From: Gemmatimonas sp.
GTDB lineage: Bacteria > Gemmatimonadota > Gemmatimonadetes > Gemmatimonadales > Gemmatimonadaceae
Length of the DNA stretch: 64,000 bases
Direction: 5' to 3'
Assembly: GCF_021298855.1 (NCBI RefSeq)
Contig: NZ_JAJTHI010000004.1
Span: 62,001 to 126,000, forward strand
Positions within the stretch are counted from its first letter, which is position 1, and the number at the start of each line of letters is the position of its first letter. Of the stretch, positions 27,697 to 30,769 are shown in pieces. The notes beneath the pieces were generated by a model. The model made no database searches. It was not told where the DNA came from and saw only the letters and a program-made list of their open reading frames with translations. The translations under genes were made by a program, and so were the position numbers.

Positions 27697-29001
27697 ATGA
27701 TTGACCGCATCGCTCTGCACACCGCCTTCTGGGGTACGCTCGTCCTGCTGTCAGCGCTCCCCTTCCTGGTGTCGGCCGGGGTGTTCCCCCTGCCCACGTT
27801 CGTCGCCGCCGCGCCGTACCTGTCGGCGCTGTCGCTGCTCGTCGCCGTGACGGGGTGGCGCCTGCTGCATCGCGAGTTGCTGCGGCGCATGCAGCACGAG
27901 ACGGCGCTCGAGCCGCGCATGCGCCGGCTGCACGACGCCATGCAGGCCAGCATGGATGGCATGTTCCTGCTGCGCACGGTGCGCGACAGCGGCGGGGAGA
28001 TTCGCGACTTCGAGATCACCGAAGCCAACACACGCGGCGCGGCGATGCTCTATCGGCACCCCACGCAGGTCGCGGGCTTGCGGTTGCGCCGGGACCTGGA
28101 GGATCTGGGACGCGCCCTGTTCCCGCAGTATCTCGACGCCGTGACCTACCGGACGGCGGTGACCGAAGAGTCGCGGGCGCACAAGCGCCACGTGAACGCG
28201 AGCTGGGTGCGGCATCAGGCCACCCCCACCACTGATGGCCTCGCCGTCACCCTGCAGGATATTTCGCGGCAGAAGCGGGAGGAGCTGCGGCTGCGCAAGG
28301 CGTCGCTCACCGACGACCTCACCGGTCTGCTCAATCGCCGCGGTTTCATGGCGCTGGCGGAGCAGCAGCTGCGGCTGGCGCGCCGTCATGCCAAGGACGC
28401 GGTGGTGTTGTACGTGGACATGAACGCATTCAAGGAGCTCAACGACACGTGCGGTCACGCGGTGGGCGACCGCGCCCTGGTGGAAGTGGCGCGCCTGCTG
28501 CGCCGAACCGTGCGTGACTGCGATGTGGTGGCGCGCCTGGGTGGCGATGAATTCACCGTGCTCGCGCTCGATGCCGACGGGCATGGGGCGCGTGCCATGC
28601 AGCAGCGCATCGAGGACCAGCTGGCCTCGCTCAACGCGCGCCGCCTGCTTCCCGCCAGCATCGGACTGACCATCGGCTACACGCGCGTGCGCTCGACCGA
28701 CCCGGCGAACATCGGCGAGCTGCTGGCGCGCGCCGACCAACTGCTGTACGCCCGCAAACGTCGCCGGGCGCACGCCGCGGTGGCTGGCACGACCAAGCCC
28801 GCGCGGGCGCCGCGTCGCACGCCGCGCACCATCCCCACGGTCCCCATTCCGGCCGAGGTCGCCGCCGTGGCCATGGCCGCGGCGCGCAGCCTGCCGTCGC
28901 CGGTGGCCGTGGCCGCCAGTGCCCCCACCTCGGCAACGCTCGCGGTGGGCGCGCTCCCACCGGCCATGCCGATGGAGCGCGGCGTTACCAGTCCGGCGTA
29001 G
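27697..29001 (+). CDS. Membrane diguanylate cyclase (PAS-like + GGDEF)
   Basis: 434 aa from the ATG at 27697. Two N-terminal helices (about 7-30 and 34-52) precede a PAS-like sensor of ~130 residues. The cyclase domain follows, with the active-site motif GGDEF at 282-286. An inhibitory RxxD site (RDCD) lies exactly five residues before it, so product inhibition is expected. A Pro/Ala-rich tail of ~70 residues ends the protein. It makes c-di-GMP, which controls surface and motility behaviour. Expression probably depends on sigma54. Its 3' end overlaps the kinase gene on the other strand by 17 bp. Confidence 0.92.
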   Translation: MIDRIALHTAFWGTLVLLSALPFLVSAGVFPLPTFVAAAPYLSALSLLVAVTGWRLLHRELLRRMQHETALEPRMRRLHDAMQASMDGMFLLRTVRDSGGEIRDFEITEANTRGAAMLYRHPTQVAGLRLRRDLEDLGRALFPQYLDAVTYRTAVTEESRAHKRHVNASWVRHQATPTTDGLAVTLQDISRQKREELRLRKASLTDDLTGLLNRRGFMALAEQQLRLARRHAKDAVVLYVDMNAFKELNDTCGHAVGDRALVEVARLLRRTVRDCDVVARLGGDEFTVLALDADGHGARAMQQRIEDQLASLNARRLLPASIGLTIGYTRVRSTDPANIGELLARADQLLYARKRRRAHAAVAGTTKPARAPRRTPRTIPTVPIPAEVAAVAMAAARSLPSPVAVAASAPTSATLAVGALPPAMPMERGVTSPA

Positions 29002-30769
29002 CGGGAGTGGCCGGCTCGTCTTCCTGCAGCCCCTCGATGAGCCGGCGCCACCACGGCCGCTGATCTTCTGCCCGGCGTATGGTGCGCACCACCTGACGCC
29101 ACGCCGCGCGCATCTCCTGCGCGTCGGCAAAGCGGTCTTCCACGCGTTGCGCGAGCCCGCGCGCAATCCACGACGCGAGTGCTTCGGGGAATTCGTCCTG
29201 CTGCAGCCGTTCCGGCAGCGTGTCGGACAGCTGCTGCGCGAGAATGAATTCGGCCGATCCGTCGCCGAAGGGCGGACGCCCCGTGAGCACGTAGTACACG
29301 ATGCTCGCCAGCGCGTAGAGATCGGTGGCCGGCCCCTGCGACTCACCCAGCAGCTGCTCGGGTGCGGCGAACGACGGGGTACCCGACGTGCCCGCCTTTT
29401 CGTCGCCCAGCGCGTACGCAATACCGAAGTCGCCAATACGCCAGCGGCGATACCGGTCGATGAGAATGTTCTCGGGCTTGAGGTCGCGATGGATGATGCC
29501 GCTCGAGTGGGCCGCATCCATGGCCTCCAGCACCTCGTCCACCTGCGGCGCAATTTCCTCGAAAGGTCGCGCCCCGCTGCGTGCCACGAGGTTGGCTACG
29601 GAGCCGCCTTCGGCGAGTTCCATGGTGTACCACACCACGCCGCCGCGCCCGTCGGTGTCGTAGATGGGCACGATGGCCGCATGCGCGAGCTGGGCCGCCA
29701 ACCGCGCTTCGCGGCGGAAGCGCGCCACGGCCACGTCGTCGCGGGCGATGTGCGGATGCAACACCTTGATGGCCACTTCGCGAGACAGTGACAGATCGCG
29801 CGCCCGCCATACGCTGCCGAACTGGCCGGTACCCAGGGGCGCAAGAATCTCGTAGTCGTCGGCCGTGGCCCAGCGCAGTCGTCCCTCGGCGGTGTCGAGC
29901 GCCTTGGGCAGCTCGTCGCCTTCCGGGGCAATGAGCACCGGGCGCACGGATACGTTCCGATCGAGCTCGCGCAGCATGGTGGCGATGCTGGGATAGCGAT
30001 CGGCCGGATTTGCCGACAGCGCGCGCTCCAGCACCGAGGCCAGGGCCCCGGGACAGTCGCTGCGCAACAGGGCCAGCGGCGGCACGTCATGTTCGGGGGG
30101 CGTCTCGCCGGTGAGCATGACGAACAGCATGGCCGCCAACTGCCACTGGTCGGAGGCGGCCGTGGGCTTCCAGCGGCCGGCGCCCCATTCGGGCGCCCAC
30201 GGCGTGAACGCCGGGTCGGGCATGAGACCGGCCGGACGCTGCTCGCGCGGCAGCACCCACTCCCATCCCAGCAACCAGAGTCGGCCACCCGGCGTCAGCC
30301 ACACCGTGCTGGCCGACACGGCGCCATGCGCGGCACTGGTGTCGTGCAGATACGCCAGCGTGCTCCCCGCTTCGCGGAGCACCTGAAAGCCGACCTGAAT
30401 GGACTCGGGACCCAGTCGCGAGACGCGCGAGTACACGGTTTCGCCGCTGATCCAGCGACGCAGATAGCCCGGGCCACGTCGGCTTTCCTGATACGACGCC
30501 CAGTAGTGGTACGTCGTGGGGATCGACGGGTGATTGCGATGCGCGAGGGCCCGCGCCTCATGACGCAGCCAGTCGGCATGCGCCGGATCGGGGATGCTGA
30601 CGAGGGAGAGGGAGCGACCGAGCGCGTCGACCACTTCCTGATAATGGCGGTGCTCCCGCTGGATGGCTTCGTCGCCCCACGACCAACCGGGCGGCAACTG
30701 CCACTCCTCCAGATGCGCCGGCGGCGACGCCGTCAGGGTCTGGTCGGAGGGAAGTGGGGACGCATCCAT
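28985..30769 (-). CDS. Serine/threonine protein kinase with N-terminal pseudokinase-like domain
   Basis: 594 aa from the ATG at 30769. The C-terminal half is a complete Hanks-type kinase: glycine loop GTGQFGSV (313-320), VAIK Lys335, catalytic HRDLKPEN with D429, and DFG 447-449. The N-terminal ~270 residues look like a second kinase fold that has lost its chemistry. An alpha-C Glu (HEARAL...HRNHPSI) and a SDQWQLAAMLFVMLTGETPP helix resembling subdomain IX remain, but HRD reads HGA and DFG reads LGW. No membrane segment is seen, so it is cytosolic. It lies 8 bp after the histidine kinase gene and is surely co-transcribed. Confidence 0.88.
   Translation of the reverse strand: MDASPLPSDQTLTASPPAHLEEWQLPPGWSWGDEAIQREHRHYQEVVDALGRSLSLVSIPDPAHADWLRHEARALAHRNHPSIPTTYHYWASYQESRRGPGYLRRWISGETVYSRVSRLGPESIQVGFQVLREAGSTLAYLHDTSAAHGAVSASTVWLTPGGRLWLLGWEWVLPREQRPAGLMPDPAFTPWAPEWGAGRWKPTAASDQWQLAAMLFVMLTGETPPEHDVPPLALLRSDCPGALASVLERALSANPADRYPSIATMLRELDRNVSVRPVLIAPEGDELPKALDTAEGRLRWATADDYEILAPLGTGQFGSVWRARDLSLSREVAIKVLHPHIARDDVAVARFRREARLAAQLAHAAIVPIYDTDGRGGVVWYTMELAEGGSVANLVARSGARPFEEIAPQVDEVLEAMDAAHSSGIIHRDLKPENILIDRYRRWRIGDFGIAYALGDEKAGTSGTPSFAAPEQLLGESQGPATDLYALASIVYYVLTGRPPFGDGSAEFILAQQLSDTLPERLQQDEFPEALASWIARGLAQRVEDRFADAQEMRAAWRQVVRTIRRAEDQRPWWRRLIEGLQEDEPATPATPDW

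Follow-up and report, generated by a model that had tools for sequence, protein, structure and literature searches.

The described proteins closest in layout to the one analysed here are components of bacterial defence systems. PglW of the BREX type 2 system consists of a NERD nuclease, an inactive pseudokinase and an active kinase, an organization that is shared by a subset of the DndF proteins (PMC12839542). That PglW contains two kinase-like domains, with an ATP site predicted in the second one only, was noted in 2015, and mutation of the Lys in the second domain led to the loss of both autophosphorylation and phage resistance (PMC4365076). In a genome of the same genus as the one studied here (locus L226), we further observed a MAD6 protein with a degenerate-looking first kinase domain (GFD in place of DFG), which gives it, too, the order NERD-pseudokinase-kinase.

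The protein that is the subject of this work is encoded in a 64,000-nucleotide stretch of a Gemmatimonas sp. genome (contig NZ_JAJTHI010000004.1; hereinafter, the window). It is 594 aa long and comprises two kinase-fold domains, a dead one (D1) followed by an apparently working one (D2) (Table 1). The open reading frame lies on the minus strand, with the ATG at 30769 and the stop at 28985, exactly as the initial annotation placed it, and the order proposed there, pseudokinase first and kinase second, is backed by sequence, structure prediction and conservation.

Comparison with known pseudokinases and tandem kinases

Like PglW, the DndF subset and MAD6, the window protein is a bacterial protein with a pseudokinase located directly N-terminal to a Ser/Thr kinase, and the four are collinear across these domains. 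Unlike it, the other three start with NERD, possess additional domains at the C-terminal end and are parts of patchily distributed defence systems; at E<=1e-100, each of them was found in 1 of 200 genomes of the phylum. The similarity raises the question of whether the window protein might itself be a defence protein akin to PglW, DndF or MAD6. Its match to the NCBIfam PglW model spans both domains in one stretch (residues 128-571; the MAD6 match covers 120-403), the tandem profile is collinear with PglW and with MAD6 over the two kinase domains, and the tree does not reject a common ancestry of the first domains; the branches in the D1 and D2 trees are long, and an origin of D1 by duplication of D2 is not separated in them from descent from the PglW/MAD6 first domain. 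We nevertheless regard a defence role as very improbable, given that there is no NERD nuclease match in the 594 residues and no defence module, that the scores are far under the family cut-offs (110 bits against 990 for PglW, NF033442, and 170.8 bits against 460 for MAD6, NF047741), and that the protein is spread across an entire order, among conserved, ordinary neighbours.

The initial annotation held that tandem pseudokinase-kinase proteins are rarely described in bacteria. As far as the architecture itself is concerned, this holds with reservations, because PglW and the DndF subset are published and MAD6 is built alike; what is new here is the stand-alone, order-wide form. No stand-alone bacterial tandem pseudokinase-kinase was found in the literature searched, which included few subscription papers. 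Neither pseudokinases nor "two kinase domains" are mentioned in PMC6213207 and PMC11032199, and neither tandem fusions nor Gemmatimonadota appear in the text of a 2025 review of bacterial Ser/Thr pseudokinase families (PMC12599244).

As a degenerate bacterial kinase fold, D1 resembles MviN/ActPs3, GLW, DLHK and DYD, and shares with MviN and GLW the bulky residues at the pocket, but it differs from the motif signatures named for the bacterial pseudokinase families (PMC12599244). Plant tandem kinase proteins, such as Yr15/WTK1, likewise combine a kinase and a pseudokinase (PMC6170490), although these are immune proteins from an unrelated lineage. PknB and other PASTA-type kinases are the closest to D2 and also provide the best fold match for D1; the window protein differs from them in having no transmembrane or PASTA region and an extra pseudokinase domain in front, and it scores 243 bits, with the cut-off at 450, against the PASTA kinase PknB/Stk1 model (NF033483), over the kinase domain only. 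JAKs are tyrosine kinases that carry FERM and SH2 modules. The JH2-JH1 portion of JAK/TYK2 shows the same order as the window protein, the pseudokinase preceding the kinase. The window protein, however, is not a FERM-SH2-JH2-JH1 protein: it consists of two kinase domains only, without FERM or SH2 modules, and its D2 is a PknB-type Ser/Thr kinase domain that best matches bacterial Ser/Thr kinases. The likeness to the JAKs is one of working principle, not of descent.

Table 1. Features of the tandem pseudokinase-kinase gene and the adjacent histidine kinase gene (window coordinates)
Feature	Position	Strand	Basis or remark
Tandem pseudokinase-kinase gene	28985..30769	(-)	ORF reading; full-length orthologs
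D1 pseudokinase domain, residues 24-275	29945..30700	(-)	AF2, Foldseek, profile search, alignment
D1 V57 at beta3, ATP-binding Lys position of kinases	30599..30601	(-)	alignment; never Lys in orthologs examined
D1 alphaC Glu E71, kept, invariant	30557..30559	(-)	alignment, conservation
D1 H148-G149-A150 at HRD position	30320..30328	(-)	sequence, alignment
D1 G168-W169-E170 at DFG position	30260..30268	(-)	alignment
Linker, residues 273-304	29858..29953	(-)	poorly ordered stretch, then E-x-R-L-R helix before D2
D2 Ser/Thr kinase domain, residues 306-552	29114..29854	(-)	Pfam; PknB structure match
D2 beta3 Lys K335 (VAIK)	29765..29767	(-)	conserved in all orthologs
D2 HRDLKPEN catalytic loop, residues 427-434	29468..29491	(-)	sequence, alignment
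D2 DFG, residues 447-449	29423..29431	(-)	sequence, alignment
C-terminal aromatic/basic helix (PWWRRLIEGLQ)	29021..29059	(-)	AF2 helix 573-583
Large membrane sensor histidine kinase gene (HisKA + HATPase_c), 1394 aa	30778..34962	(-)	Pfam

The two kinase-fold domains

The C-terminal half of the protein had been described as intact, and every catalytic motif is indeed present in D2, namely, G-x-G-x-F-G, VAIK, HRDLKPEN, DFG and APE, which identifies it as a Hanks-type Ser/Thr kinase domain. Its match to Pfam Pkinase reaches 158.9 bits over residues 306-548, and its best solved relatives are the bacterial PASTA-type kinases, the first being PknB of M. tuberculosis (35% identity, TMt 0.87). Judging by these motifs, D2 is predicted to be catalytically competent.

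The first 295 residues alone yield 14.3 bits against the same Pfam family, far below the cut-off. The AF2 model of D1 alone (pLDDT 88.7, pTM 0.86) contains strands and helices from beta1 to alphaI in the kinase order; PknB is the top Foldseek match of D1, with TM values that reach 0.72 when normalized to the query length and 0.80 when normalized to the target length, at 21-22% identity; and a PDB search with a profile of D1 orthologs leads to PknA/PknB (E = 3e-19 and below 1e-15). The three approaches agree with the earlier proposal that the N-terminal domain keeps the layout of a kinase, and the structure prediction suggested at that time as a check returned a kinase-like, not a non-kinase, fold; on the strength of all three, the kinase fold of D1 is more than a chance resemblance.

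By fold and by sequence, D1 is a pseudokinase, with a kinase fold and the loss of one or more of the VAIK Lys, the HRD Asp and the DFG Asp; in the window protein, all three are lost. The HGA that was initially read in place of HRD is confirmed, but the extent of the loss was understated: the Gly loop and the beta3 Lys are missing as well, and the catalytic-loop Asn is replaced by Thr155. The LGW assigned to the DFG position turns out to be one residue out of register, because both D2 and the sister-family orthologs align DFG with G-W-E. D1 still has the Glu of alphaC, that of the APE motif and Asp207 of alphaF.

The linker that joins the domains is conserved in all three families of the order; in the whole-protein AF2 model, it shows low pLDDT at 274-287 and a helix at 294-302. 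We considered the E-x-R-L-R motif of this helix as a mark of a D1-D2 interface, a candidacy that is weakened because several ordinary kinases of the same genome have a similar stretch before the Gly loop. Tails resembling PWWRRL recur in most orthologs, in the window's family as well as in the sister families, and this aromatic and basic C-terminal helix may anchor the protein at the membrane surface. Beyond it, the stop codon of the tandem gene lies in a tail-to-tail overlap of 17 nt with a PAS-like/GGDEF diguanylate cyclase gene (27391-29001, plus strand).

Distribution and constraint

A full-length tandem profile was run against 200 genomes of the phylum, and the tallies given here are from the matches listed. 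Matches above 340 bits occur in the window's family in 64 of 69 genomes and in the two sister families in 41 of 46; most of these cover both domains, and several are truncated, mainly where a contig ends. The search for the same fusion in Gemmatimonadota that the initial annotation had called for thus recovers the tandem in 105 of the 115 sampled genomes of one order and, among the matches listed down to 284 bits, a level that ordinary single kinases reach with this profile, in none of the 85 genomes sampled elsewhere in the phylum. The two domains, therefore, stayed together as the three families diverged. Orthologs in named records belong to Gemmatimonadaceae/Gemmatimonas and to a single Roseisolibacter isolate. 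A second tandem pseudokinase-kinase copy, 45% identical (L069, 7882-9981), is present in one genus (genomes G054 and G148). At 4 of 17 sister-family loci (L082, 9910-12006; L087, L089 and L091), the divergent neighbour encodes, as judged by eye, two FHA domains, a coiled coil and a trypsin-like domain.

In the window's family, D1 orthologs (53-97% identity) are found in almost all genomes, and among 67 aligned sequences, none has the beta3 Lys in D1 and 4 have the HRD Asp there, with D2 intact in all 67. The best matches in the sister families are mostly tandem ORFs of ~600 residues, 34-41% identical overall, in which D1 is degenerate in another way, with the beta3 Lys changed to Arg, HRD to R-R-I/V, and DFG to D-L-R, the DFG Asp being kept. 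The full set of catalytic motifs is present in D2 of every ortholog examined and in D1 of none. The sister-family substitutions suggest that D1 could be a nucleotide sensor that binds ATP in a non-canonical fashion, through an Arg-lined pocket that was possibly lost in the window's family; ATP binding by Arg-lined pockets has been proposed for the DLHK kinases and ULK4 (PMC12599244). Such a role appears improbable considering that D1 of the window's family retains neither the Lys, the HRD Asp and the Asn nor the Gly loop and the DFG Asp, and has Trp residues in or near those lost positions.

For the most closely related pairs, the Nei-Gojobori dN/dS of D1 amounts to ~0.02-0.08, and it reaches ~0.15 at most when wider pairs are compared; D2 gives similar values. 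In D1, 44 columns are invariant across 59 sequences. By these sequence measures, D1 is under strong purifying selection and is not a relic. With every catalytic residue gone, D1 might be taken for a functionless, decaying leftover of a domain duplication, but this is hardly credible: the evidence of selection and conservation already contradicts it, and it is at odds with the confident fold and the near-universal retention in the order.

Mean column information is 3.26 bits in the N-lobe and 2.72 bits in the C-lobe of D1, not far from the 3.43 and 2.89 bits, respectively, in those of D2. Of the core segments, the catalytic loop ranks last in conservation in D1 (2.38 bits) and first in D2 (3.92 bits); the constraint on D1 sits in beta2, beta4, the hinge, the former DFG strand and alphaF. 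As read from the alignments, such a distribution speaks for binding or regulation without catalysis rather than for decay, and it suits docking or scaffolding almost as well as control in cis. In the docking scenario, which is possible although we lean against it, D1 would be a platform that brings substrates or the neighbouring histidine kinase to D2, leaving the intrinsic activity of D2 unchanged. Conservation on beta2, beta4, the hinge and alphaF, rather than on the catalytic loop, is what such a platform could display; scaffolding has been documented for MviN, which recruits FhaA, and for EssB, both of them bacterial pseudokinases (PMC12599244); and the gene of a double-FHA, trypsin-like protein adjoins some of the sister-family loci. 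Scaffold partners, however, often differ by lineage, yet D1 is fused to D2 and near-universal in three families.

The adjacent histidine kinase and the proposed mechanism

The gene directly upstream of the tandem gene, on the same strand and separated from its start codon by 8 nt, encodes the histidine kinase, and the two genes probably share one transcript; a promoter scan found nothing. Among 27 same-family genera with enough flanking sequence, 19 have the histidine kinase gene immediately upstream in the same orientation and 5 have it close by on the opposite strand; in 1, it is on the same strand 6 kb off, and in the other 2, it was not found in the stretch examined. In the sister families, an ortholog of the histidine kinase is present, but away from the tandem gene, and three genomes of one genus have kept the histidine kinase and are missing the tandem gene. 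A strict co-occurrence of the two is rejected by this genus: the genes are not strictly dependent because these three genomes have the histidine kinase alone. The partial adjacency and its exceptions therefore make the link to the histidine kinase a strong lead rather than an obligate pairing. No cognate response regulator is encoded beside the histidine kinase, the nearest one found being ~18 kb away, with its receiver domain at about 12226-12549 (minus strand), inside a 504-aa open frame. Between the histidine kinase gene and a TolC-like gene, there is a conserved gene with no Pfam match (34779-35699, plus strand), which is retained at the locus in most same-family genera.

On balance, it seems just probable that the window protein is a cis-regulated kinase, in which the pseudokinase D1 regulates the Ser/Thr kinase D2, with input via or alongside the histidine kinase pathway. 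We rank control in cis first because the two domains remained joined while three families diverged from one another. The product would be a Ser/Thr protein kinase of the cytoplasm, possibly at the membrane surface, in which D1 was kept as a regulatory domain that works in cis, by touching D2; depending on a partner or on the state of D1, the putative contact would switch D2 either on or off, in analogy to the action of JH2 on JH1 in the JAKs or of one PknB protomer on the other in the back-to-back dimer. The likeliest source of the input in the window's family would be the co-directional membrane histidine kinase or a pathway that the two have in common. JAK-like control of D2 by D1 is plausible. 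We count against control in cis the whole-protein AF2 model, in which the pTM of 0.50 gives no confident D1-D2 arrangement, the non-adjacency in the sister families, and the one genus with the histidine kinase and without the tandem gene. Both control in cis, be it JAK-like or in the manner of a built-in PknB back-to-back dimer, and docking are compatible with the data. Doubtful, in our estimate, is the more elaborate proposition of an order-wide bacterial counterpart of JAK regulation, in which D1 would be a built-in dimer partner and an allosteric switch of D2, with input from the co-transcribed histidine kinase, joining two-component and Ser/Thr signalling.

To our knowledge, the control of a linked kinase by a pseudokinase has been studied almost solely in eukaryotes, and the bacterial pseudokinases with a worked-out mechanism are few. 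The tandem protein of this order is compact, with only two domains, and comes in many natural variants, with two differently degenerated versions of D1; it could, therefore, provide a simple system in which to study the control of an active kinase by an inactive one and to ask whether such arrangements have originated more than once. Moreover, the usual adjacency to a histidine kinase makes it a candidate link between the two main phosphorylation systems of bacteria.
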